Source: Nitrospirales bacterium (GTDB taxonomy: Bacteria; Nitrospirota; Nitrospiria; Nitrospirales; UBA8639). From it: 64,000 nucleotides of DNA. The notes under the pieces were generated by a model, which worked only from the letters and a program-made list of their open reading frames with translations, searched no databases and had not been told where the DNA came from. Below are positions 6,590 through 21,211 of the stretch, piece after piece. The stretch's first letter is position 1, and each line of letters begins with the position of its first letter. Where the stretch lies: contig JALDRJ010000002.1 in the NCBI GenBank assembly GCA_031315865.1, positions 1,896,001-1,960,000 of the forward strand, given 5' to 3'. The position numbers and the translations under genes were made by a program.

Positions 6590-6991
6590 GGCGAAATTAC
6601 TCGTCCTTCTTCATCCCATCACGCAGTATACGAAGTCCCCAACTCCACGATCTCTGTATCCAGCGAGAGTTTCAGTCATTTCCTTGTTGCTCTGCTGTAA
6701 AACACCTCAGTCAATGTATGGCAGATCTCCTGCCCACCTTCCTCGCAACCCCGGATGCCAGGACTGTTCAACGACATGAGCGTTCAAAAGACGCTCGTTA
6801 CTTTTTTGCAAAATGCTTTGAACTAAGTGCACATGGCCTGCGACTCATGATGCAGAAGGGGGGGAATGAAGGCGACTTTATTCATTTGTAAAGATCAGAC
6901 GCAAAAAGGAAGTCGCGTATCCCTCAACCAGGGTAACGAGCATTCTCTGGTTACTTCATCACCACATATCACATTACAAGGAGGTTCTGTC
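6590..6991. other. Intergenic region before the first cationic-tail protein gene
   Basis: About 400 bp without a supported gene; the short open frames here look random. A small inverted repeat (GAGCGT / ACGCTC, 6778-6796) is followed by a T6 run and could be a weak terminator or leader hairpin. A strong ribosome site (AAGGAGG) lies at the 3' edge, just before the ATG at 6992. Confidence 0.4.
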
Positions 6992-8113
6992 ATGGCACCA
7001 TTTATCAAATTACGACGCACGGTCTATCTAGGGCTCTTGGCATCCATGTTTGTCGGGAGTCCAGCTTATGCGGAGATTAGTCTGCCATCTGCTATTGAGC
7101 TGGAACAATCCATCTATTTCCAAAATCCATCAGGTGAACCTGTCCAGTTTCAAGCAGGTCTGTATGATGTTCAACAAAAAGGCGAGAATGCGCTGAACAT
7201 GATTCCCATTGGTACGAAGGCTGGAGAAGCCATGTCAATTCAGGCGCTTCCGGCAGGACATGATGAGGATATCGAGGCCAACACGGCAAACTTGGTCCCG
7301 CCTCCCGATCACAACACGGATAAACAGCACTTAGTGTTTATGACCCCCGATGGGCTGGCGTTGGAATCGATTGGTTCCTACAGCGGAGTCTTTTCCCGAT
7401 CTCCGGCGACTTGGGAGCAGAATGTCAGTGCAGATGGGGCTGAACAGGAAGCTCCGCTCACCGTACGTTTTGAAAAAGCCACATATTTTAAGACGATTGG
7501 CGGTGCTCCGAAGTCCATCCAACCTGGTGAGTATGAGGTGGCCCTGACCGATGACGGGCTGATCCTAACGCCAAGCGGGGATACGGAGGGCGAAGCCATG
7601 ACGGTTGAGTCAGAGGCTCTAGGGACTTCAACGGCGACGATTATTCCTGAATTTGGAGATAATCCAGACCTGGAATTGCTGATGATTGCGACAGCTGGCG
7701 GCCAATCAATCGCGGCTGTGGGGTCACACACCGGTACGTTTCCGCGCGGGTTTGGCAGTTTATTGAAAAGAGTCGGCGGCAAGGTGAAAAAGTCCGCGCA
7801 GGGCGCTGTGAATACAGCCAGGAAACATGTCGTTCAAAAAGTCAAAAAAGGTGTTCAAATTGCTCATGGTCATGCGAAAAAAGGCGTGAAGAAAGCCGTC
7901 ATGGCTGCCAAGAAGCACGGGGCGGAAGCTATGCAAAAGGTGAAGAGTCATGGCGTGAAGTATGCGAAAAAATACGGAAAAAAGATCAAGGACGGGGCCC
8001 TAACGCATGGGAAGAAATTTATCAGCAAAGTGTGTGGCCAAGGCAAAAGCGGCAAATGTATCGAAGTGATCGCGCAACAGGGTGGAAAGCTACTCCAAGG
8101 TGCAGGGGGCTGA
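6992..8113 (+). CDS. Secreted two-repeat protein with lysine-rich C-terminal tail (paralogue A)
   Basis: A 373-residue exported protein I do not recognise. AAGGAGG precedes the chosen ATG; in-frame codons upstream are not needed. The signal peptide cleaves near Ala27 (SPAYA). Two related segments of about 100 residues follow (about 36-136 and 160-252), each with a 'YF..GxPxxxQxGxYEV' start and a 'GSHTGTFPR'/'GSYSGVFSR' end. From about residue 255 the protein changes to a Lys/Gly/Ala/His-rich tail of about 120 residues resembling histone-H1-like or cationic amphipathic sequence, ending with Cys348 and Cys356 that could form a disulfide. A strong terminator follows. The neighbouring gene is a full-length paralogue. 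Confidence 0.75.
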   Translation: MAPFIKLRRTVYLGLLASMFVGSPAYAEISLPSAIELEQSIYFQNPSGEPVQFQAGLYDVQQKGENALNMIPIGTKAGEAMSIQALPAGHDEDIEANTANLVPPPDHNTDKQHLVFMTPDGLALESIGSYSGVFSRSPATWEQNVSADGAEQEAPLTVRFEKATYFKTIGGAPKSIQPGEYEVALTDDGLILTPSGDTEGEAMTVESEALGTSTATIIPEFGDNPDLELLMIATAGGQSIAAVGSHTGTFPRGFGSLLKRVGGKVKKSAQGAVNTARKHVVQKVKKGVQIAHGHAKKGVKKAVMAAKKHGAEAMQKVKSHGVKYAKKYGKKIKDGALTHGKKFISKVCGQGKSGKCIEVIAQQGGKLLQGAGG

Positions 8114-8144
8114 CCACTCTTTGTAGGCCGGGCAATCGTCAACG

Positions 8145-8182
8145 CAACAAAAAGGGCGTTCTCCGGGGCGCCCTTTTTGTTG
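8145..8182. terminator. Bidirectional-type intrinsic terminator
   Basis: A perfect 14-bp stem CAACAAAAAGGGCG / CGCCCTTTTTGTTG with a 10-nt loop, starting 31 bp after the paralogue A stop codon. The A-run and T-run inside the stem make it a good intrinsic terminator. It separates the two paralogous cationic-tail genes, so the second gene probably has its own promoter or depends on read-through. Confidence 0.85.
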
Positions 8183-8225
8183 AATCGGACCAGAAAGATT
8201 TGGGACATGCCTAAGGGGGAAAACC

Positions 8226-9353
8226 ATGAGAATACATTCATGCTATCGATCATGCTATCGATGCGCCATCTTATTTCAGTTGTTGGCCGTCACCCTGTTC
8301 GTCGGGCCGGCATTCGGGGAACTCCTATTTCCAACAGCCGTTCACCTTGGATCACCTGTGTATTTCCAGCAACCGGATGGTCATCCGATTCAACTACAGG
8401 CAGGGGTGTATGAAGTGGAACGGGGAGAGGATGCAGTACTCAATGTGTATGCCGTTGGGGCCAAGGAGGATGATTCTGTCACGATTCAAGCGATTTCAGC
8501 AGAGCATGATCTGGAACTCACGGAAGCGACGGCTGAACTGATTCCGTCTCCTGATCAGGATGCCGACACACAGCATTTGTTATTATGGATGCCCGACGGG
8601 GAGGCTCTGGAAGCGGTAGGATCGTTCAGTGGCGTTTTTTCACGGTCCGTCTTGACCTGGGCCATAGCGACGAGTGGTGGCGCTGATGGATTGCCTGAAG
8701 AGACGCTAACCGTAGATTTTGAAGAGAGCATCTCCTTTAAGACGGTTGGTGGCGATCCTACAGCTATTCAAGCGGGGCAGTATGAAGTCTCGATCGATGA
8801 ACATGGGCTTGTCCTGAGCTCAACGACCAGTGCTCAGGGCGATTCTATCACCGTTGAAACGGAATCGCTGGGAACTTCCCTGGCGGTACTCCTGCCAGGT
8901 TTGTCTGGAAATTCTGACTTGGAACTTCTGATGATCGGTACCGCGAATGGCCAATCTTTGATGGCCATGGGCTCCCATAGCGGGACCTTTCCCCGTGGTG
9001 TGTTCGGCGAGATTGGCAAAGGATTAAAGAAGGCCGGTGGAAAAATCAAATCAGGAGCAGGAAAAATCGGTGGCGGCGTGAAAAAGGGGATGACGCGAGT
9101 GGGCAGTGGGATCAAGACCGGGGCGAAATTCGCACACGGCAAAGTGGGCCGGCATGTCGTGAAACACGCCAGAAAAGGCATTCAGGCCGGCGTGAAATAT
9201 GGCGACAAGTATGGGAAAAAGATCGCGGTCGGAGCGTATCGAGTGGGGGAGAAAGCCGGGAAAGAGGTCGTCAAGTTCTGTACGGGTTCCATTCAGCAAG
9301 CGCATACTTGTTACAAAGTTGGTAAGATGGCTGCCATGGTCGCGGCCAGTTAA
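8226..9353 (+). CDS. Secreted two-repeat protein with lysine-rich C-terminal tail (paralogue B)
   Basis: A 375-residue paralogue of the preceding protein. The ribosome site AAGGGGGA precedes the ATG. The signal peptide is MRIHSCYRSCYRCAILFQLL onward to about AFG. Two related domains follow (SPVYFQQPDGHPIQLQAGVYEV; SISFKTVGGDPTAIQAGQYEV), each closed by a 'GSFSGVFSR'/'GSHSGTFPR' motif. A tail of about 115 residues is rich in Lys, Gly and Ala with periodic GxxxG (KGLKKAGGKIKSGAGKIGGG) and two Cys near the end (KFCTG, HTCYKVG). The overall architecture matches paralogue A while the tail sequence is diverged. Function unknown; candidates are a cationic membrane-active effector or a DNA/polyanion-binding matrix protein. 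Confidence 0.75.
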   Translation: MRIHSCYRSCYRCAILFQLLAVTLFVGPAFGELLFPTAVHLGSPVYFQQPDGHPIQLQAGVYEVERGEDAVLNVYAVGAKEDDSVTIQAISAEHDLELTEATAELIPSPDQDADTQHLLLWMPDGEALEAVGSFSGVFSRSVLTWAIATSGGADGLPEETLTVDFEESISFKTVGGDPTAIQAGQYEVSIDEHGLVLSSTTSAQGDSITVETESLGTSLAVLLPGLSGNSDLELLMIGTANGQSLMAMGSHSGTFPRGVFGEIGKGLKKAGGKIKSGAGKIGGGVKKGMTRVGSGIKTGAKFAHGKVGRHVVKHARKGIQAGVKYGDKYGKKIAVGAYRVGEKAGKEVVKFCTGSIQQAHTCYKVGKMAAMVAAS

Positions 9354-10343: not shown

Positions 10344-11363
10344 ATGCATGACGAAGCAAAGAATTTTCTGACCTGGTCCCGGCGTCAGTTCCTCAAGCTC
10401 TTGTTGGCCAGCGGCTCCCTGGCTGCCTCTTCGTTGCCGCAACCATCGGTTGGAGGGGGATCAGAGTTTCATGCCCAGGTATTCATCGGAAAAGCGAGTG
10501 CCTACGGGAGTAATCTTCGCGACGTGATCGCCAGAGGATTTCACGAACTTGGGGTTTCTCCTGCAGAGATTAAGGGGAAAAGGATCTTACTCAAGCCGAA
10601 TCTCGTTGAAACCCACGTTGAGCGCGCGCATATCAATACCCATCCATTGGTCGTGCGTGCGGCCATTGAGGTTTTTCTGAGTCTTGGCGCTCGTGCGGTT
10701 CTGGTGGGTGAAGGGCCTGGGCATCGGCAGGATGCGTGGCAGATTCTAGAGGAATCAGGCTTGGGACCGATTCTGCACGAGGACCGTATTCCATTCACGA
10801 ACTTGAATGAACAAACGGGTTTCTCTGTCGCGAATCAAGGCCGGTGGACGGCTTTGGCCACTCTCACGTTTCCCAGAATGTTTCGTGATATCGATTGGAT
10901 CGTCTCGATGCCCAAGTTGAAAACCCATCATTGGGCTGGAGTCACGCTGTCCATGAAAAATCTATTTGGCGTCATGCCCGGGCTGTACTATGGGTGGCCC
11001 AAGAATGTGTTCCATCATCAAGGCATACACCAATCGATCGTGGATATTACTGCGACGTTGAAACCGCACTTTTCGATCGTGGACGGAATCGTAGGCATGG
11101 AGGGCGATGGCCCGATTATGGGGACGCCGAAACCCATGGGAGTCCTGGCGATGGGAAGAAATCTCACCGCCGTGGATGCGACTTGCGCGCGGTTGATGGG
11201 CATCGACCCCTACAAGGTTCCCTATCTGCTGGCCGCCGATGAATGGCTTGGTCCTCTCGGTGAGGCGCGCATCGTGCAGCGTGGAGAACCAATTTGGTCA
11301 ATGCGGCAAGACTTTGCTCTGCTCGAAGACGTTCCGGCGCACCAAGGCCTACGGTTGGGATAA
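10344..11363 (+). CDS. DUF362 domain protein with Tat signal
   Basis: A 339-residue protein with a twin-arginine signal SRRQFLKLLLASG at residues 12-24, predicting folded export. The mature part carries DUF362 features: GKRILLKPNLVE, a central MPKLKTHHWAGVTLSMKN and a C-terminal LTAVDATCARLMGIDP. DUF362 is often fused to 4Fe-4S ferredoxin domains; no CxxCxxC cluster motif is present here. It follows the toroid-fold gene after 18 bp. The biochemical function of the family is not established. Confidence 0.82.
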   Translation: MHDEAKNFLTWSRRQFLKLLLASGSLAASSLPQPSVGGGSEFHAQVFIGKASAYGSNLRDVIARGFHELGVSPAEIKGKRILLKPNLVETHVERAHINTHPLVVRAAIEVFLSLGARAVLVGEGPGHRQDAWQILEESGLGPILHEDRIPFTNLNEQTGFSVANQGRWTALATLTFPRMFRDIDWIVSMPKLKTHHWAGVTLSMKNLFGVMPGLYYGWPKNVFHHQGIHQSIVDITATLKPHFSIVDGIVGMEGDGPIMGTPKPMGVLAMGRNLTAVDATCARLMGIDPYKVPYLLAADEWLGPLGEARIVQRGEPIWSMRQDFALLEDVPAHQGLRLG

Positions 11364-11397
11364 GACCATTCAAGCCTGCCTGTTGTCTTTCTCCCGA

Positions 11398-12060
11398 TTA
11401 ACCCTGTTTGATGAGTGAGCGCGCGGCTTCAAAGGCGGCTTCCATGTCGGGTAATTCGGCCAATTCAGGCGTAACCTGTAAATACCGGATGACGTTATCT
11501 TTGTCGACCACCATGACGGCTCTGGACAGGATGTGTGGCTGTTGAATAAAGAGTCCGTGCGATTTTCCGAATTCCCCACCCCGGTAATCCGAATAAAACG
11601 TGACATTGTGAATGTTGGCCTCTTTGGCGAATCGGTCCTGGGCAAAAGGTGTGTCGATGCTCACCGTCAGGAGTTCCACTTCCTGGTCCAGGCCTTCGTT
11701 CTTCTCACTGAGATAATGTGTTTGTTGCTCGCACACCTTCGTATCGATCGACGGCACGACACTAATGATCCGGACTTTTCCTTTTGTCTGCGCGATATCG
11801 ACGAGAGAAAGGTCTTTGCTCGCCACCTGTACGTTGCGAAGCGTGTCGCCGAGTTTGAGTTCGTTGCCGGACAGCGCAAAATTTTTCCCATGAAGCGTGA
11901 CGCTCGTCCCTTCACCGACTGACACCGTTTTGTGGGTTACGGGCAGGTCTTTGTAAATGAACCCCTTGTGACTGCCTTCTTGAGTTGTCGTACATCCTAT
12001 GACGACACACAGACTTATTCCACTCATTAAACAGATGGTCATTGATCGTTTGTATCGCAC
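11398..12060 (-). CDS. tpx: Lipoprotein thiol peroxidase (Tpx family) lacking the resolving cysteine
   Basis: A 220-residue atypical 2-Cys peroxiredoxin relative. The start is GTG at 12060, because AAGGAGGTTTCC lies directly upstream; a more distant in-frame ATG lies in front of this ribosome site. The signal peptide ends in lipobox VIGC (Cys23), so it should be membrane-anchored, unlike the cytoplasmic or soluble periplasmic Tpx of model species. The peroxidatic motif is intact (DTKVC, Cys110 with Thr107). The resolving cysteine of E. coli Tpx (RFC) is Ala145 here (RFAKE), so recycling would need an external thiol. It is convergent with the DUF362 gene and adjacent to ergothioneine genes. 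Confidence 0.88.
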   Translation of the reverse strand: MRYKRSMTICLMSGISLCVVIGCTTTQEGSHKGFIYKDLPVTHKTVSVGEGTSVTLHGKNFALSGNELKLGDTLRNVQVASKDLSLVDIAQTKGKVRIISVVPSIDTKVCEQQTHYLSEKNEGLDQEVELLTVSIDTPFAQDRFAKEANIHNVTFYSDYRGGEFGKSHGLFIQQPHILSRAVMVVDKDNVIRYLQVTPELAELPDMEAAFEAARSLIKQG

Positions 12061-12188
12061 GGAAACCTCCTTTAGGTAATTTATGTCATTCGGTGGATGC
12101 AAAATTCTGATGAATGCAAAGCCTATTGTGGCATAAAGCGCACTCCTTGAAAACTACTGTATAGAGAGCGCGTGTGAAATAAGACGAT

Positions 12189-13289
12189 TTACACATAGAG
12201 CTTGATCGTTTCCAAGACTTTTTTCACGTCCTGAAGATCGGTTTCCGGCATCCAGGAAAGCCGGAAACTGGGGCATGCGCCAGCTGGATAATCCGAGAAG
12301 GCTTTGACCACGATATGCCAATCGTCGTACAGCTGTCGATAGAGACGGTCATGCCTGTCGGGACGCAGACACCGGAATGTCAGAATCCCCGGAGCCTGCG
12401 GTCCGGTCCATCCTTGAATTTTGATCATGGGCATCTGCTGGAATTCTCGCAGTACGAATTCCCGGATTTGAAAAAGCTTGGCCGTCTCTACGCCATGCTG
12501 ACGCTTTATGTGACAGGTCCGTGCCAAGCCGGCGATGAGTCCGATGTTGTGTGTGCCGATCTCGAATCGAGAGGCGGGGGATTGTCCATGGTCGATGGGT
12601 TGTGACCAAAGCGACGAGGCAGATGCGGCCAAACGGTCAGAGATGATGAGCGCTCCTGTTCCTAATGGCCCCCGGCACCATTTATAGCCTGAGAAAAAGT
12701 ATGCGTCGCAATTCAAAGCCTGAAAGTTGACGTCGATCTGTCCTACGGCTTGTGCGCCATCCACAGCGAAAAAGATGTCATGGGATCTGGAAAATTCCGC
12801 AATCTCGGCGATGGGAAAAACCCGTCCATCGACGTGCGATACGTGACTGAGGATGATGGCTTTGAGGTTCAATCGGCTCACGTTTTGTTCCAGCGATTTC
12901 AAAAAATGTTCTGGAGAAGATGAAGGGGGAATAAAGTGCGTCTTGACGCCTTTTGCTTGGAGTGCCAGTAGTGCATTTCGTATGGAAGGATTCTCGTGAG
13001 TGGTGCTGACAATATCATCGCCTGGGTTCCAGGTCAGCGCGGAGACGAGGAGATGGTTCGCCGTCGAGGCATTGGGCACAAACGCGATATTCGAAGCATC
13101 AGGCACGTGTAGCAAGCCCGCCACGGTTTCACGACATTGTTGAATTTTCGTGCGATACCATTCGACGCCGGCATCGGAGTATAAATAGTGCTTGAGTGAG
13201 GCAAGTGTATCTGCGACCTCCTGTTCGGCTTCTGGATGAGTCGGACAGAGGCCAGCGTAATTGAGGTAGGTCATCGGCCGTTTGTTCAT
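12189..13289 (-). CDS. egtE: Class V aminotransferase-like PLP enzyme, likely ergothioneine C-S lyase (EgtE-like)
   Basis: A 366-residue fold-type I PLP protein of the cysteine desulfurase/class V family. Visible motifs are FVPNASTANHLLVSAL near the phosphate site, the cofactor Asp in FFAVDGAQAVGQ, and the Schiff-base lysine in FFSGYKWCRGPLGTG. EgtE performs the last step of ergothioneine synthesis, C-S cleavage of the hercynyl-cysteine sulfoxide. The sequence alone cannot separate this from other class V enzymes; the call rests on egtD being next to it on the same strand and egtB nearby. The stop of this gene and the start of the Tpx gene are about 130 bp apart. Confidence 0.72.
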   Translation of the reverse strand: MNKRPMTYLNYAGLCPTHPEAEQEVADTLASLKHYLYSDAGVEWYRTKIQQCRETVAGLLHVPDASNIAFVPNASTANHLLVSALTWNPGDDIVSTTHENPSIRNALLALQAKGVKTHFIPPSSSPEHFLKSLEQNVSRLNLKAIILSHVSHVDGRVFPIAEIAEFSRSHDIFFAVDGAQAVGQIDVNFQALNCDAYFFSGYKWCRGPLGTGALIISDRLAASASSLWSQPIDHGQSPASRFEIGTHNIGLIAGLARTCHIKRQHGVETAKLFQIREFVLREFQQMPMIKIQGWTGPQAPGILTFRCLRPDRHDRLYRQLYDDWHIVVKAFSDYPAGACPSFRLSWMPETDLQDVKKVLETIKLYV

Positions 13290-13430
13290 TCGATTCTCCA
13301 GCGGGACGATTCGATCGAGAGCCTTTCAGGGTACTCTTTCAGTGGACCCTATGGAGAGTGGAGGGAGAGCCATGGAATGTCGGAAAAGAACAAACAGGCG
13401 GCATTTTGTATGGAGAGGCGGATATGGCGG

Positions 13431-14417
13431 TCAGGGTTTTCGCGCAAGCGCCAGGCCGATGAGTTCTTCAGGGTCGGTGTACCATTTGATCATGTCGAAC
13501 CCGGATTGACGTAAAAGAGCCTCAGTCCGCGAGTGATCATACTTGGTGCTGATTTCTGTGAGGATATCTTCCCCTTTTTCAAGAGTAAAGGAAAAGTCAA
13601 TGCTCGGCATGTGGATATGTTGCTGCTCTTTCGAACGTAAGCGCATTTCGATCCGGTGGTTGGTCGAGTCATAGAGGGCAACATGGTCGAATGTGTCGGG
13701 ATCAAGTGTCGCTCCGACCATACCTTGCATGACATATAAAATATTTTTATTGAACTCAGCGGTGACGCCGGCTGAATCGTTGTAGGCTCGTTCGATGCGT
13801 ACGATGTTGGTTTCGAGTTGCACGCCTAATAAGAAAAAATCGCCAGACGCCATCTCCCTCTGAATGGACGAGACAAAGTTCAGCGCGGCCTGCGGATTGA
13901 GATTTCCGATCGTGCCGCCCAAGATGACGACCAGTCGGCGACCACCCTCTGGAATATGTTCGAGATGTGACAGGAAATCCCCAACGACGCCATGGACGTG
14001 AAGACCTTCATATTCGTCGACGAGTTCCTGGGCGACTCGACGGACGATGCCTTCACTGACATCGAAGGGCACATAGAAACGTAATTGATTGGCCTTTTCC
14101 ATCGCATCGAGCAGTACGCGAGTTTTAGTCGCAGCTCCTGAACCGAGCTCAACTAATTCTTCGGCGTTTGTGAGGCTAATGATCTGATCGGCGCAGGTAT
14201 TGAGCAATGCCCGTTCCGTTCGTGTCTGGTAATACTCAGGAAGATTACAGATATCCTCGAACAGCTCTGAGCCTCGATCGTCATAGAGATATTTGGTCGG
14301 CAATGTTCGAGGCGATGCTGACAAGCCTTGTCGTAATTCTGATTTGATGTTGTGCGGCGTCTCACCACTGATATGAACATCGACGATGATTTTGGGCAGT
14401 CCTGTCATACAATCCAT
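13431..14417 (-). CDS. egtD: L-histidine N-alpha-methyltransferase (EgtD)
   Basis: A 328-residue SAM-dependent methyltransferase converting histidine to hercynine (N-alpha-trimethylhistidine), the first step of ergothioneine synthesis. The typical EgtD N-terminus is present (LPTKYLYDDRGSELFEDICNLPEYY), as are the SAM site VELGSGAATKTRVLLDA and a YVPFDVSEG segment. The length matches the family (about 320). GGGGAGA precedes the ATG at 14417. It lies 141 bp upstream of the EgtE-like gene on the same strand. Confidence 0.93.
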   Translation of the reverse strand: MDCMTGLPKIIVDVHISGETPHNIKSELRQGLSASPRTLPTKYLYDDRGSELFEDICNLPEYYQTRTERALLNTCADQIISLTNAEELVELGSGAATKTRVLLDAMEKANQLRFYVPFDVSEGIVRRVAQELVDEYEGLHVHGVVGDFLSHLEHIPEGGRRLVVILGGTIGNLNPQAALNFVSSIQREMASGDFFLLGVQLETNIVRIERAYNDSAGVTAEFNKNILYVMQGMVGATLDPDTFDHVALYDSTNHRIEMRLRSKEQQHIHMPSIDFSFTLEKGEDILTEISTKYDHSRTEALLRQSGFDMIKWYTDPEELIGLALARKP

Positions 14418-14840
14418 ACGTTCTCCCCTTCAAGGCGTGGCTCGATACATCCGCGTTGGTTCTGCGAAGAGTGAGCTTCCGCTATCGCTCCTGGTGATTT
14501 CAGCCGGTATTCTGTCAAATAACGAACATGGGGTGCATGAAGAATATAAGATGATCGCGTATGGAAGATGGAGAAAAATAATGGTTAGCCTTACGAGATC
14601 GTGAGTGGTGAGTAAATGAGACGAATCGAACAAAGTCGCAATGGGAAACGCGTCATTGCGGGCAATGTGACTGATAAGAATTTCCCGTAGAATGTCTGTA
14701 GTATAAAAGGGCAGGTCTATTGGCGCAACCTTTGCGTATGACGATTGTCATAGAAGTGTGCAGTTCTCCTAAGAGTAGAATGTCTAGGGATTCGGTATTA
14801 TGCCGTGGAACATCACATCCTATCTATCAAGGCTTCGTGG
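14418..14840. other. Intergenic region between egtD and the transporter gene
   Basis: About 420 bp with no supported gene. It should contain the egtD promoter, reading leftward. A three-part alternating repeat is present: CGCAATG (14637), CATTGCG (14654) and CAATG (14663), which could form mutually exclusive small hairpins. One half of a 21-bp tandem duplication lies at its right edge. Confidence 0.4.
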
Positions 14841-14861
14841 CTATCTCTCAAGGCCTCGTGG
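14820..14861. repeat. 21-bp imperfect tandem duplication covering a stop codon
   Basis: Two adjacent 21-bp units (14820-14840 and 14841-14861) match at 19 of 21 positions; the second contains the last codons and TAG stop of the transporter gene, the first lies just past the stop. It looks like a local slippage or duplication event, leaving a stop codon in both copies. Confidence 0.8.
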
Positions 14862-16406
14862 CTTTATCCATCGCTCAAGGAGACTTAACAGACCGTCAAC
14901 GATGAGGGCGAGCAGTGCAGCAGGCAGGGCTCCTGAGAGGATCAGTGTCGTGTTGGCCAGCTGCAATCCTGAAACAATGGGGACGCCCAGTCCGCCTGCT
15001 CCGATGAATGCGGCAAGAGTTGCCGTTCCGACGGTGATGACGGCGGATGTGCGAATGCCTGCCATGATCACAGGAGCGGACAGTGGGAGACGCACCCAGG
15101 TCAGGATTTGCCAATCGGTCATCCCGAGCGCACGGGCGGCTTCGACGGCAGATGGCGCGGCATCGCGCAAACCGGAGTACGTGTTTCGGAGGATGGGATA
15201 TAGTGAATAGAGCCACAAGGCCATGATAGCCGGCAGCATGCCCACTCCAAAGAACGGTATCATGAAGGCGAGTAACGCGATAGACGGAATCGTTTGTGTC
15301 GTCCCAATCAATCGGATCAGAGGTTCAGCGATGGATCGTTGACGTTCGAGGAGAAGGCCAAGCGGAACAGCCAGAAGAATGCCCAGGCTCAGTCCCATTC
15401 CTGCGAGCCGTAGGTGTTCCAGGGTATGGGTGGCAAGCGTCTGTCTGTGTTCCAGTAGATAGTGGAACATGTTTGTATCCCGAGAATTGTCTGAAGCGGC
15501 AGTCGGTTGCGGTTTGAAGAGACCGATGGCTTCCAGGGCGTCATGGGCCACGCGTTCGACGGTATCCCCTTTTTCTTGAATTCGCAGATTCAGGGATTGC
15601 ATCAGTTTCGTATCAAGGGCATCCGTTAAGAGGGATAAGATCACGCCTACTCGTGGATAGCGCGTCAGTGTCTCCTCGCGGATTAAGGCGGCGGCTTCAT
15701 AGGGCGGGAAAAACCGGCGGTCATCTTCGAGCACCGTAAAATCGTAGACCGCAAGGCGTCCGTCAGTCGTGTACACGTCTAAGACATCCACTTCTCCAGT
15801 GTTTGCCGCTTGATACTTCATGGTTTGTTGCATCGTCACGATTTCTTTAAATGCAAGTCCGTATGTTTGCCGCAACCCTGGAATGCCGTCCGGCCGTTGA
15901 ACGAACTCATACCCTAAGCCGGCTTTCAGAGTGGGGGCAATCTTCGCGAGATCAGAAATTGTTCGAAGTTTGAGTTGCTTCGCGCGTGTTCTCGGGACGG
16001 CCAGGGCGTAAGAGTTTTCAAACCCTAACGGGCTGATCCATACCAGATTCCATCGAGACAAAAATTCCACGCGAACGCGATTCAACGTGTCACGTGCACT
16101 TTTAGCTGGTGCTTGCTTGAGGATGCTGACGAGCCCGGTTCCTGTGTATTCAGGGTAAAGGTCTATTGCTCCCGTCTTCAGTGCTTCAAATGCGACTTGA
16201 GTTCCGGCGAGACCGAGCCGGCGTTCCACTCGTATGTCTGTCTTGGCTTCGATGAGCTGAGCGAATATTTCTGCGAGCAGACGGTTTTCCATAAAATTTT
16301 TGGACCCGACGATGATGTGGCGGTCCCGGGAAGATGCGGACGTCTCAAGAGGGACGAGGAGGGAAAGGAATACGAGACTCGTCAAGAAACGCATCCAGCC
16401 TGTCAT
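14841..16406 (-). CDS. Fused substrate-binding/permease protein of an OpuC/EgtU-like ABC transporter
   Basis: A 521-residue fusion. A signal peptide (to about residue 25) precedes an OpuCC/ProX-type binding domain (IIVGSKNFMENRLLAEIF, GAIDLYPEYTGTGL), ending near residue 290. A permease domain follows with about six membrane segments and the EAA-like loop near DAAPSAVEAARALGMTDW. Domain order (binding domain first) is opposite to that described for EgtU, where the permease is N-terminal. The ATPase gene is directly upstream on the same strand. The family transports betaine, choline or related quaternary amines; enclosure by egtD, egtE and egtB suggests ergothioneine, hercynine or a precursor as substrate. 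That is inference from context. Confidence 0.85.
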   Translation of the reverse strand: MTGWMRFLTSLVFLSLLVPLETSASSRDRHIIVGSKNFMENRLLAEIFAQLIEAKTDIRVERRLGLAGTQVAFEALKTGAIDLYPEYTGTGLVSILKQAPAKSARDTLNRVRVEFLSRWNLVWISPLGFENSYALAVPRTRAKQLKLRTISDLAKIAPTLKAGLGYEFVQRPDGIPGLRQTYGLAFKEIVTMQQTMKYQAANTGEVDVLDVYTTDGRLAVYDFTVLEDDRRFFPPYEAAALIREETLTRYPRVGVILSLLTDALDTKLMQSLNLRIQEKGDTVERVAHDALEAIGLFKPQPTAASDNSRDTNMFHYLLEHRQTLATHTLEHLRLAGMGLSLGILLAVPLGLLLERQRSIAEPLIRLIGTTQTIPSIALLAFMIPFFGVGMLPAIMALWLYSLYPILRNTYSGLRDAAPSAVEAARALGMTDWQILTWVRLPLSAPVIMAGIRTSAVITVGTATLAAFIGAGGLGVPIVSGLQLANTTLILSGALPAALLALIVDGLLSLLERWIKPRGLER

Positions 16407-16421
16407 TGCTTGCCGCCCTCT

Positions 16422-17165
16422 CTAGGTCGTTGGAAGGTGTTGGAGCAGATTTTGAACATAGTCATCTGCCGGATGTTCCTGGAGTTCTCGAGGAGTAGCT
16501 ATCTGTCGTATCCGACCGTCTTTCATGATGGCAATACGATCCCCAAGGTAAAAGGCTTCGCGCAAATCATGGGTGACGAGCACCATCGTTTTATTAAGGT
16601 TCTGTTTAAGTGTAAGAAACTGTTCTTGAAGCTCGATCCGGGTAAGAGCGTCAAGCGCTCCAAACGGTTCATCAAGGAGGACGATGTCCGGGTCACCGGC
16701 GAGCGCGCGGGCTACGGCCACCCGCTGTCGCTGGCCCCCTGAAAGGGTGATGGGGTAGCGGCTGCGGTACTGATGTGGCCTGAGGCCAACCAGGGTTAAC
16801 AGCTGATCGATGCGTTGGTCGCGATGTTCGGGGTTCCACCCGAGCAGGGTCGGAAGGAGTCCGACGTTTTGCTCCACAGTCCAATGGGGAAGGAGCCCTC
16901 CGTCTTGTTGGACGTACCCTATCTGTCGACGGAGTGTGATCGGGTTCTGGAGCGTCACTTCTTCTTCCATCATCAGGATCTCACCTGACGTTGGCTCGTC
17001 GAGCCGGTTAAGAAGTCGGAGGAGCGTGGTCTTTCCCGACCCACTCTCTCCGATAAGCACCATCGTTTCGCCTACCTCGACTTGCCAATTGATGTCCTGA
17101 AGAGCATTGGTCCCATCGGGAAAGGTTTTTGTCACGTGACAGGCTCGTAGTGCGCAGTGAGACAT
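16422..17165 (-). CDS. ABC transporter ATP-binding protein, OpuCA/EgtV-like
   Basis: About 247 residues from the ATG of MSHCALRACHV. Walker A GESGSGKTT, Q-loop GYVQQDGGLLPHW, signature LSGGQRQRVAVARAL, Walker B IVLLDEPFGALD and H-loop LVTHD are all intact. There is no C-terminal CBS pair, which many OpuCA proteins carry, in line with a short EgtV-like ATPase. It ends 15 bp before the fused binding/permease gene, so the two form one transporter operon. An earlier in-frame ATG at 17216 would add 17 residues with no clear ribosome site. Confidence 0.88.
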   Translation of the reverse strand: MSHCALRACHVTKTFPDGTNALQDINWQVEVGETMVLIGESGSGKTTLLRLLNRLDEPTSGEILMMEEEVTLQNPITLRRQIGYVQQDGGLLPHWTVEQNVGLLPTLLGWNPEHRDQRIDQLLTLVGLRPHQYRSRYPITLSGGQRQRVAVARALAGDPDIVLLDEPFGALDALTRIELQEQFLTLKQNLNKTMVLVTHDLREAFYLGDRIAIMKDGRIRQIATPRELQEHPADDYVQNLLQHLPTT

Positions 17166-17511
17166 GCGTAACAAAGCAGGGAGAATGACGGAAATTGCGG
17201 GTGGAAATTGTCTCACTCAGGATACCAAGACCGGCTATGTGTGACCATAGAAAACTCTCGAATCATTTGAATTATCCTGAAAACTATCACAATCTCACGT
17301 GTCGGGATTTCACGAATCCGGAGGGGAAAATCCGGCAGGCTAGGCTTTTCTCGTATTGTCAGGCTCTCGTCAGTTTGCTAATCTGCTGCGATGGCCTGTT
17401 GACTTCAATTGGTATTATCATTCATACGTAGGTGTGTGATGCCCCTTACGAGGGGTTTTTTATTGATTGTTTCTGAATGAGTAAGGCGTCTTGTTCGTGA
17501 AGGAGGGGTTT
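17166..17511. promoter_or_regulatory. Divergent control region between the transporter operon and egtB
   Basis: About 345 bp with no gene. It holds leftward promoter(s) for the transporter and rightward ones for egtB. A TTGACT (17399-17404) with TCATAC 17 bp later is a poor but possible egtB promoter. A terminator-like hairpin follows within the leader at 17442. Confidence 0.4.
17442..17461 (+). terminator. Intrinsic-terminator-like hairpin in the egtB leader
   Basis: CCCCT-TACG-AGGGG stem-loop followed by T6, reading toward egtB and ending about 50 bp before its start. No plus-strand gene lies upstream for it to terminate, so it may act as an attenuator. Confidence 0.65.
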
Positions 17512-18723
17512 ATGATTTCATCATCCGTGCTCCCCGTGGCATTGAATGAAGCTCGTGAATGCATGGATTCGATCTTTGCGCATGTCCACCCTGATTCGTT
17601 TTATGAGCGGGGGATTCCAGAACGTCACCGGTTGATCTTTTATTTAGGACATGTGGAGGCGTTTGATTGGAACCAGGTTTGTCGCTGGACGTTGGGAAAA
17701 CCTTCATTTCATGAAACCTTTGATCAGTTGTTTGAAGCCGGGATTGACCCGAAGGTAGGTACATTATCTCAAGATCAGCCATCAGACTGGCCTACTCTTG
17801 ATGAGGTGTTCGAATACAATCGACGAGTGCGTGAAGAGATTGATCAAGCGATGGAATATGCCCCGCCCGATATCGTATCTATTGCGATTGAACATCGGTG
17901 GATGCATGTGGAAACGACAGCCTACATTCTTCATCGGCTTCCGAACACCAGTAAAGTGATTCCTGCGTGCTCTCCTCTTCGGAAATATCCATCTCCAATT
18001 CATGACATGATTGAGGTGCCGGCGGGTGTTGCGACATTGGGTGAAGAGCCTTCCACGACGTTTGGCTGGGACAATGAGTTTAACCGGCATGAAGTGCCTG
18101 TTCCGGCGTTTTCGATGAGTAAGTACAAAGTGACCAATGGGCAGTACCTTCGGTTTGTTCAGGAAGGAGCCGCTCCGCCCTCGTTTTGGGTTCAACGTGG
18201 CAACACGTGGTTTCTGCGTACGATGTTCGGAGAACAAGAACTGCCTCTGGATTGGCCGGTCTATGTTTCACAGCGTGAGGCTCAGGCCTATGCGGCATGG
18301 GCTGGTTTGGCACTTCCGACCGAAGCCCAGTTCCATCGTGCCGCTTACGGGACACGGATTGGTGAAGAACGCCTTTATCCATGGGGTGACGACACACCTG
18401 ATAAAAAATATGGGAATTTTGGCTTTCACCGTTGGGATCCCGAACCTGTTACGGCCCACCCGGAAGGGGAGAGTGATTTTGGGTTCGCGCAGCTCGTGGG
18501 CAACGGATGGGAGTGGACATCGACGCCGTTTCATCCATTCGAAGGATTCATGCCCCACTCAACGTACCCGGGTTATTCGGCAAGATTTTTTGACGATGAT
18601 CATTACGTGGTAAAAGGAGCGGGTCCTCAAACAGCTCCGTGTTTGTTGCGTCGTTCGTTCCGAAACTGGTTTCGTCCGGGCTATCCCTATGCCGATATCG
18701 GATTTCGCTGCGTGCAAAATTAG
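17512..18723 (+). CDS. egtB: EgtB-like sulfoxide synthase (DinB-type iron domain plus FGE-sulfatase domain)
   Basis: A 403-residue protein. The ATG at 17512 follows a strong GAAGGAGGGG. The N-terminal DinB-like domain carries probable iron ligands His47 (LGHVEAFDW), His128 and His132 (EHRWMHVE). The C-terminal formylglycine-enzyme-like domain shows YKVTNGQYLRFV, LPTEAQFHRAAYG, GNGWEWTSTPF and the ending YADIGFRCVQN. EgtB joins hercynine to a cysteine or gamma-glutamyl-cysteine thiol with O2. No egtA or egtC is present here, so a cysteine-using EgtB is possible, but those genes could lie elsewhere. It diverges from the transporter operon. SenA-type selenoneine synthases are related; no senB neighbour is seen. 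Confidence 0.85.
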   Translation: MISSSVLPVALNEARECMDSIFAHVHPDSFYERGIPERHRLIFYLGHVEAFDWNQVCRWTLGKPSFHETFDQLFEAGIDPKVGTLSQDQPSDWPTLDEVFEYNRRVREEIDQAMEYAPPDIVSIAIEHRWMHVETTAYILHRLPNTSKVIPACSPLRKYPSPIHDMIEVPAGVATLGEEPSTTFGWDNEFNRHEVPVPAFSMSKYKVTNGQYLRFVQEGAAPPSFWVQRGNTWFLRTMFGEQELPLDWPVYVSQREAQAYAAWAGLALPTEAQFHRAAYGTRIGEERLYPWGDDTPDKKYGNFGFHRWDPEPVTAHPEGESDFGFAQLVGNGWEWTSTPFHPFEGFMPHSTYPGYSARFFDDDHYVVKGAGPQTAPCLLRRSFRNWFRPGYPYADIGFRCVQN

Positions 18724-18790
18724 CCATACCTCGTACGCCGAGAATCTGATCGCCGGGGAACATGCCCTGTTTACCTAATTCCCCACATTG

Positions 18791-21211
18791 ATGATGAATC
18801 GTCGACGAAGCTCGGCTTTGTCCCCGGGACGTTGGATATCTGAGCTCGTTGCGGTTTGGCGTCAGACGAAGTTAATCGTGCTCACGGCTCAAGTCGCGGC
18901 CATCTATGCGGCTATCCTCATCCCGTTCAAAGTCGGCATTCCCATCATTCCCGGGTTTGTCGAATTGCGTCCGGCTAACGCGATTCCTCTAGTCACCTCT
19001 CTACTGTTTGGTCCGGTTGCCGCATGGGGCGCGGGCATCGGCAACATTATCGGAGATTGTTTTGGAACGTTAGGCCCCGCCAGTGTCTTTGGATTTCTCG
19101 GGAACTTTTTCCTGGGTTTGCTGCCTTACACACTATGGGGAGCCCTTGGTCCCCTCTCTTCAGGGACAGCTCCACATGTCAAAGCTTGGCGGCCCGGACT
19201 GGAGTATGCGCTCATTTGTTGCCTTGCTTCTGGGGGGTGTGCGGTCATCATCGCATGGGGCGTGGAATGGTTAGGGTTCCTCCCATTCATGGTCCTGGCG
19301 CCGGCCATTTTTTTTAACAATGTGGCGATGGGGTTGTTCCTCGGTCCTCCCCTCCTGTGGTTTCTCTATCCTCGAGTCAAACAATGGGGACTACTCTACC
19401 CAGATCTTCTTGACGGACAGCGTGATATGGCTGATCCGGCAATGGTAAGAAGTCAATCAATCGTGCGTAGCGGCGCATCCGGTTTGACAGTACCCGACTC
19501 CAGTCTCATCGCTGAATTGAACGATATTACGTTTCAGTATCAATCATCCGAGACTCCGGCGTTGAAAAACCTCACTCTGACCATTCGTCGAGGTGAATGG
19601 GTCGCCATCATGGGACGTCGAGGCTCAGGGAAATCGACGGTATGTCATCTGCTCAGCGATCTGATTCCACGGTCTGTTCCCGGCCGGCTTTCCGGGCATA
19701 TTCGAACAACCTTCGAGCCAGTATCAAACCATGATCCTTCCGGCTATCAGCGCAAGGGCGTTGGCCTGGTGTTTCAAGACTTTGATGCTCAATTACTCGC
19801 ATCGAGCGTTGAGCGTGAGGTCTTGTTTCCCCTTGAATATCTCTCACCTTCACTTTCACCAGACGAGATGAAGGAGCGAATTCAATGGGCATTGCGCGAG
19901 GTAGGCCTGGAGGGCTTTTCTTCACGCGACCCGCTGTCGTTGTCTGGAGGACAGCGGCAGCGATTAGTCCTGGCAACGGTGCTCGTGTGTTACCCCTCTC
20001 TCTTGGTCTTGGATCAGCCTTTGACCGACCTTGATCCGCAGGCACGAGTCCAATTGAAAGAACTTTTCAGGATTTTAAGGGATCAAGGCATGACGATCGT
20101 CCTTGTAGGGCAAGAGTCGGCGGAAGTCTTGCAGGCGGATCGCCTCTGTGTATTGGATCATGGCGAAATCTGTTGGACAGGAACTCCACGTGAGTTTTTC
20201 GGATCGCCAACCTTGCCTGCACAATTCGGCATTGCCGCCATTCCTTTGGCTGAATGTTTCGTCGATATGAATGTCCCGATGCTGCCTGTAACTGTGGAGG
20301 AAGCCTGGCGTGTGATGGATGAACAGGCTTGTACGCTTCACCCGAAGCGTGAAACGTCTCAAGGCTATCAACCGAATGTTGCCGACTGTGCGGTCGCAGG
20401 CCAGGATATTCCCCTGCTTCAGGTTGATGCCGTATCGTTCGAATACTCCGGTGAGTCTCGAGTCCTTGAAGATATTTCTTTCATTGTGACTCAAGGAGAA
20501 TTTGTGGCCGTGCTGGGAAAGAATGGGTCGGGAAAAAGTACGTTGAGCAAGCTATTGAATGGCCTTCTCCTTCCGTTGAAGGGCGAGGTGTTTGTCGGAG
20601 GCCGCAGTACGAAAACGACCTCGATGAGTGAATTATCCCGGTTGGTGGGGTATGTATTTCAGAATCCTGACCATCAAATTTTTGCGGAGACTGTTTGGCA
20701 GGAGGTTGAGTTTGGGGTGAAGAACTTTGGATTTCCCAGATCGGAGTGCGAACAACGGGTTGCCGATGCTCTGGAGGCGGTAGGCCTGGACGTCGACTAT
20801 TATCGCTCGCAGGATCCTTTTTCTCTCACGAAAGGAGAGCGTCAGCGAATTGCCGTGGCATCGATTTTAGCGACTAAACCTGACATTCTAATTTTTGATG
20901 AACCAACGACCGGACTCGATGCTCAAGAGATCGAGCAGATGATGAACATGATTTTCTTCCTTCACCAACAGGGCCACACGATATTGATGATTACACACAT
21001 GATTCACTTAGTCGCCACGTATTCTACCCGGTGTATTTTAATGCATGAGGGCCGGGTCATCGCTGATGACACGACGCGGGCGGTGTTTTCTAATCCGTCT
21101 CACCTTCACCGTGCTTCCCTGGAAGTCCCGGCCTTAACGACGTTTAGCCAACGTTGGGGATGTACCTTATTGACCGTCGACGAAATCAAGGCCGCAATGG
21201 AAGCCTCATGA
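18791..21211 (+). CDS. Fused ECF transporter: S-like membrane domain plus two ABC ATPases
   Basis: About 806 residues. Residues about 25-200 form a multi-pass S-component-like domain (GIPIIPGFVELRPANAIPLV, GNIIGDCFG). Two ATPase domains follow. The first has Walker A GRRGSGKST and signature LSGGQRQRL but Walker B LVLDQP with Gln replacing the catalytic Glu. The second has Walker A GKNGSGKST and an intact LIFDEPTTGLD but a degenerate signature LTKGERQRI. This pattern gives one canonical and one degenerate site. EcfT follows with a 4-bp overlap. The substrate (a vitamin, metal or similar) cannot be told from sequence. The start is TTG 18788, ATG 18791 or ATG 18794; the ribosome site is weak. 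Confidence 0.88.
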   Translation: MMNRRRSSALSPGRWISELVAVWRQTKLIVLTAQVAAIYAAILIPFKVGIPIIPGFVELRPANAIPLVTSLLFGPVAAWGAGIGNIIGDCFGTLGPASVFGFLGNFFLGLLPYTLWGALGPLSSGTAPHVKAWRPGLEYALICCLASGGCAVIIAWGVEWLGFLPFMVLAPAIFFNNVAMGLFLGPPLLWFLYPRVKQWGLLYPDLLDGQRDMADPAMVRSQSIVRSGASGLTVPDSSLIAELNDITFQYQSSETPALKNLTLTIRRGEWVAIMGRRGSGKSTVCHLLSDLIPRSVPGRLSGHIRTTFEPVSNHDPSGYQRKGVGLVFQDFDAQLLASSVEREVLFPLEYLSPSLSPDEMKERIQWALREVGLEGFSSRDPLSLSGGQRQRLVLATVLVCYPSLLVLDQPLTDLDPQARVQLKELFRILRDQGMTIVLVGQESAEVLQADRLCVLDHGEICWTGTPREFFGSPTLPAQFGIAAIPLAECFVDMNVPMLPVTVEEAWRVMDEQACTLHPKRETSQGYQPNVADCAVAGQDIPLLQVDAVSFEYSGESRVLEDISFIVTQGEFVAVLGKNGSGKSTLSKLLNGLLLPLKGEVFVGGRSTKTTSMSELSRLVGYVFQNPDHQIFAETVWQEVEFGVKNFGFPRSECEQRVADALEAVGLDVDYYRSQDPFSLTKGERQRIAVASILATKPDILIFDEPTTGLDAQEIEQMMNMIFFLHQQGHTILMITHMIHLVATYSTRCILMHEGRVIADDTTRAVFSNPSHLHRASLEVPALTTFSQRWGCTLLTVDEIKAAMEAS

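Follow-up and report, generated by a model that had tools for sequence, protein, structure and literature searches.

The window, our term for the whole 64,000-nucleotide stretch of Nitrospirales DNA analysed here, encodes on its minus strand a 220-aa thiol peroxidase (Tpx) that reads as an exported, one-cysteine lipoprotein (11398..12060; called from the translation and the match to NF001808). A strong ribosome site supports its GTG start at 12060: the Shine-Dalgarno sequence AAAGGAGG (12066..12073, minus strand; read from the sequence) lies 5 nt ahead of it. The N-terminus follows the bacterial lipoprotein pattern, with a charged n-region, a hydrophobic stretch and then the lipobox VIGC at residues 20–23 (signal peptide 11992..12060, minus strand), whose +1 residue, Cys23 (codon 11992-11994, minus strand), is the predicted lipidated cysteine. 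Export versus cytosol was assigned by eye and by the lipobox pattern, from which the protein is predicted to be anchored facing the periplasm. Translation places cysteines at positions 10, 18, 23 and 110; as the first two lie within the signal peptide and the third is the lipobox +1 residue, Cys110 is left as the sole free cysteine of the mature chain. This peroxidatic residue (codon 11731..11733, minus strand) sits in the motif PSIDTKVC. The resolving-cysteine position is taken, by alignment and translation, by Ala145 (codon 11626..11628, minus strand) within FAQDRFAKEA.

Upstream of tpx, and on the same strand, lie a gene for an EgtE-like class-V PLP enzyme (12189..13289; PF00266) and egtD, encoding the histidine methyltransferase (13431..14417; TIGR03438, 335.5 bits against a cut-off of 290.9). 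The earlier note had placed tpx next to ergothioneine genes, which is correct; the name EgtE itself is weakly founded, with 62.2 bits where TIGR04343 asks for 400. Directly upstream of egtD is a betaine-type ABC importer (14841-17216) in which the binding domain is fused ahead of the permease, plus an ATPase; it is a possible ergothioneine or hercynine importer. An EgtB-like FGE enzyme (17491-18723) stays under every cut-off (OvoA N-terminus 222.5 bits versus 400, SenA 186.7 versus 420, EgtB 179.4 versus 360), and its product is uncertain. Further out, 18788-21211 forms a single 807-aa ORF with a QueT-like S component fused to two ECF ATPase domains, and 6866-9353 holds two similar, tandem, secreted-looking proteins with Lys/Ala-rich C-terminal tails (by eye). 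Rfam returned two tRNAs only, and promoter and terminator scans of 11300-17600 gave no excess over shuffled sequences.

With 143.9 bits the window protein exceeds the cut-off (123) of NF001808, the NCBIfam thiol peroxidase equivalog, and it matches the Pfam models Redoxin and AhpC-TSA. The selenocysteine Tpx model NF045827 is matched as well, at 120.8 bits, but this reading was rejected, the score being well under the cut-off of 298. The excerpted text of PMC5302317 describes Tpx as a 2-Cys enzyme, defines the subgroup by the motif PS(I/L/V)DTx(V/T/I)C and names AxxR(F/W)C as its hallmark, the resolving Cys lying in helix alpha-3 in the known structures. PSIDTKVC agrees with the first of these motifs; at the canonical second one the window protein departs, reading AQDRFA, and in the alignments shown for three solved Tpx chains (1psq, 3p7x and 8zwt) Ala145 pairs with the Cys of RWC. 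An AlphaFold2 model built from a 48-row alignment reached a pLDDT of 92.8 and a pTM of 0.89, the N-terminal segment being modelled with high confidence past the first ~8–10 mature residues. With this predicted model as query, Foldseek ranks 1–32 were all Tpx entries, led by 2yzh (titled peroxiredoxin-like), 3p7x (titled atypical two-cysteine peroxiredoxin) and 1psq.

Family model, motif, predicted fold and active-site Arg are shared with the canonical atypical 2-Cys Tpx of E. coli, S. pneumoniae (1psq) and S. aureus (3p7x), whereas the window protein differs in its Ala for the helix alpha-3 resolving Cys, in His115 for Arg, in predicted export and lipid anchoring, and in an ordered N-terminal segment with F34, Y36, G49 and G51 near-invariant across 31 lipoprotein rows. 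Those 31 rows also agree, wholly or almost so, on E111, H115, T137, A145, N152, H176 and Q195, positions at which seven cytosolic rows have other residues. The mature chain has the one cysteine that marks 1-Cys peroxiredoxins, a mechanistic class. AhpE and Prx6, with a single catalytic cysteine and an outside reductant, represent the same way of working but another subfamily: the window protein clears the NCBIfam cut-off of the Tpx model only, and AhpE first appears at rank 35 of the Foldseek list. Family membership, active site and predicted fold make the protein a Tpx—a new variant within an already known fold—and its sequence suggests that it works like a 1-Cys peroxiredoxin and not like a canonical 2-Cys Tpx.

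The missing cysteine could also mean that the protein is no longer a peroxidase and has become a redox-dead or structural lipoprotein. We regard this as very improbable. The loss itself and the change at residue 115 (His in 31/31 lipoprotein rows, Arg in 7/7 cytosolic rows) would suit such a fate, but the peroxidatic motif and the active-site Arg are invariant: P, T, V, C and this Arg (mature 158, precursor 180) are unchanged throughout the 48 rows of alignment A1, and Cys110 is kept in all 93 distinct orthologues.

These orthologues combine 80 loci from a contig scan (77 labelled Nitrospirota; L037, L058 and L109 labelled otherwise) with matches from a genome search. At the resolving position 92 of them have Ala and one has Ser (L100), which rules out chance or sequencing error as the source of Ala145. 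The lipobox is strict in 87, reads SLPGC or LWSC in five, and is out of view in one whose start is missing (L051). A resolving cysteine elsewhere in the fold, which had been set beforehand as the condition against a one-cysteine enzyme, occurs in none of the 87 strict-lipobox orthologues, where the peroxidatic cysteine is the only one besides the anchor. The earlier note's reading of the protein—Cys110 kept, Ala145 at the resolving position, a lipobox at Cys23—is borne out on each point, and the absent resolving cysteine is, across these sequences, a fixed trait of the lipoprotein Tpx. Counting as carriers those genomes with a best E of at most 1e-55, we found the lipoprotein in 48 of the 78 genomes searched, its own included; G010 and G076, which hold fragments only, were counted as lacking it. 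Both exported Tpx genes of G010 (L130, L131) look broken or mis-assembled, their frame being lost.

Many relatives additionally encode a soluble exported paralogue (signal peptide called by eye) with the motif PQLNTPVC, mostly 40–46% identity and Ala or Ser at the resolving position. Its gene belongs to a separate conserved cluster (L192-L199, L203) that also encodes a B12-binding MerR regulator, a photolyase, DUF1722 and DUF4149 proteins and an epimerase, which suggests a light-stress role and possibly a light-stress regulon. Glutathione-peroxidase family proteins also occur near exported Tpx genes (L193:1765-2421 and L200:5843-6328), one of them starting with a hydrophobic stretch at its N-terminus; no GshB exceeded the cut-off in the family to which the L193 genome belongs.

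Among 153 distinct Tpx domains (a count that leaves out L130 and L131, which are short, and L172, which gave no hit), the peroxidatic Cys is retained in every one, while the resolving position holds Ala in 105, Cys in 36, Ser in six, Leu in four, and Val and Met in one each. With N-termini judged by eye, Cys occupies it in none of 111 exported but in 36 of 42 cytosolic domains; 30 of the loci sampled (L134-L163) are best scorers to the family model, which may favour the canonical cysteine. Both forms occur together in G212, G227 and G296, three genomes from family f7 of the same class: a cytosolic 2-Cys Tpx (L134, L138 and L136, respectively) and, elsewhere in the genome, an exported 1-Cys lipoprotein (L164, L165 and L166). 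In a tree of 42 chosen rows, calculated with the resolving column dropped, a branch supported at 100/99 set all 21 exported rows apart, with the caution that long branches are joined there (those of Vibrio and L164/L165); an earlier 89-row tree, which took in 22 of the 93 lipoprotein rows, agrees on the exported branch (SH-aLRT 99). Because both export and the loss of the cysteine go with a single branch, their correlation amounts to one event and provides no independent evidence that export caused the loss.

Export is, moreover, not the sole cause. Six of the 42 cytosolic Tpx in the main sample lack the resolving cysteine, as do five of 23 from another phylum, probably Myxococcota, to which G336 belongs, so the loss does not require export. 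In that phylum 25 of 57 genomes had a Tpx match, and the 23 proteins read, a count excluding the weak match of G343, all look cytosolic, 18 of them with the Cys; G336's own Tpx is of the Nitrospirota type and may come from a stray contig. Vibrio megaplasmids carry a tandem Tpx pair (L183:4456-5570, L184:4453-5570) in which neither member has the usual resolving cysteine: the last gene is exported with Ile at this position, and its cytosolic partner has Val. In one Nitrospirota genus (g42; L167-L170), a cytosolic Tpx has Leu there. The underlying finding is a predicted exported, one-cysteine Tpx subfamily. Literature searches, Nitrospira included, listed no one-cysteine Tpx of exported or lipoprotein type that could be recognised by title or abstract opening.

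What recycles such an enzyme was approached through gene neighbourhoods and genome content. The common order at most Nitrospirota loci is carboxylase, alpha/beta-hydrolase lipoprotein, tpx, SthA and TenA on one strand (in L086, SthA scores 662.4 bits against a cut-off of 465 and TenA 154.7 against 130). Over 95 distinct loci, carboxylase and hydrolase, joined by clustering, occur at least 80 times, SthA at least 56 and TenA at least 57 times; these are lower bounds, many loci being short. This conserved neighbourhood showed no thioredoxin-like gene next to tpx. The neighbouring hydrolase was rejected as a thiol partner, the L086 copy having no cysteine past that of its lipobox (by eye, one copy).

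Ergothioneine made by the adjoining egt genes might reduce the Cys110 sulfenic acid, as the earlier note had proposed from the location next to ergothioneine genes. Both egtD and the EgtE-like gene do lie immediately upstream in the same orientation, and the EgtB-like gene (17491-18723) is nearby. This arrangement is peculiar to the window: among the 95 loci, 34 of which extend at least 4 kb to each side, egtD is near tpx in one, that of the window itself, and an EgtE-like gene in two, the window and L035 from the same genus, in whose genome (G001) egtD lies on a different contig from tpx. Matches to egtD occur in 58 of 78 genomes and in 31 of the 48 carriers, but are missing from the other 17 carriers (family f3, 15/17), G065 among them. 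Cross-tabulating the protein by egtD (31/17/27/3) gives an association that is, if anything, negative (Fisher p 0.016, uncorrected for kinship). Neither the tpx–egt linkage nor the co-occurrence in relatives expected of an ergothioneine-dependent system was found. Ergothioneine is, besides, a weakly reducing thione. Taken together, these observations speak against the proposal, and we consider recycling by ergothioneine very improbable.

Reduction by some other small sulfur compound (cysteine, sulfide, coenzyme A or a further thiol) is unlikely too, but deserves more weight. 1-Cys peroxiredoxins elsewhere do use low-mass thiols, as AhpE does with mycothiol, and an AhpE entry titled with mycothiol is among the Foldseek matches. 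Against it, GshB scored over the cut-off in 0 of 78 genomes, with weak matches in 18; on this search for the classical GshB, glutathione is not a strong alternative donor. We assign a similarly small likelihood to an intermolecular Cys110–Cys110 disulfide, the resulting dimer acting as a peroxide sensor or being reduced by a thioredoxin-like protein. Lipid anchoring would raise the local concentration and so favour such a dimer, and 3hvx, the C95S variant of E. coli Tpx that is without the resolving cysteine, is described in its entry title as having an intermolecular disulfide.

A CcdA/DsbD-type match is present in 74 of 78 genomes and in 57 of the 57 good ones, and the window's own genome encodes a TlpA-like CGPC protein with a lipobox (L212:6871-7524) followed by CcdA (7511-8257). 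Given this distribution, the adjacency of CcdA to the TlpA-like protein and the weak record of egtD and GshB, a CcdA–TlpA route appears likelier than the others. Trust in it is limited by the second task of CcdA and TlpA-like proteins, the maturation of cytochrome c; in G065 their genes adjoin apparent cytochrome c maturation genes (by eye), and their presence is therefore no pointer to Tpx. The best candidate electron donor is a TlpA-like periplasmic thioredoxin fed by CcdA, a tentative choice that we hold at somewhat less than evens.

The window protein itself is very probably an exported one-cysteine peroxidase, as its sequence features suggest. Peroxide would oxidise Cys110 to a sulfenic acid, which, no resolving cysteine being present, a second molecule would attack with its thiol, the likeliest attacker being a TlpA/ResA-like thioredoxin bound to the membrane and supplied with cytosolic electrons by CcdA; the second thiol of that protein would then release Cys110. 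In a compartment devoid of cytosolic thioredoxin, doing without the resolving cysteine would keep a stable disulfide from forming within the chain. The earlier note had held that a different reductant would be needed: a different recycling route is what we, too, infer, though a thioredoxin-like protein can still reduce a 1-Cys peroxiredoxin. In Caulobacter, ScsB–TlpL–PprX reportedly forms a periplasmic peroxide-reduction path, PprX not being a Tpx. The proposed logic is the same, a membrane electron transporter feeding a periplasmic peroxiredoxin, but at the loci studied here no gene for a transporter of that kind was found next to tpx. The pneumococcal Etrx1 and Etrx2 are likewise lipid-anchored thiol defences outside the membrane but not Tpx; they are surface thioredoxin-like lipoproteins, with the methionine sulfoxide reductase SpMsrAB2 listed as redox partner (PMC3914529). 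The whole explanation, an envelope peroxidase of the one-cysteine exported Tpx branch recycled by TlpA and CcdA, stands in our estimation at an even balance.

At a wider scale, and more tentatively than that, the exported one-cysteine Tpx subfamily, lipid-anchored and soluble, in Nitrospirota and on Vibrio megaplasmids, may constitute a dedicated envelope peroxide defence that works without glutathione or ergothioneine, its site remodelled by His115 and Ala145 and its ordered N-terminal segment fitted to a periplasmic thioredoxin-like donor. An exported Tpx branch without the resolving cysteine would offer a natural case in which to test what makes peroxiredoxins retain or drop this residue. 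Nitrospira defluvii is reported, in an excerpt of PMC8115632, to be without catalase and superoxide dismutase; the exported branch would equip nitrite oxidisers with a peroxide defence in the envelope.
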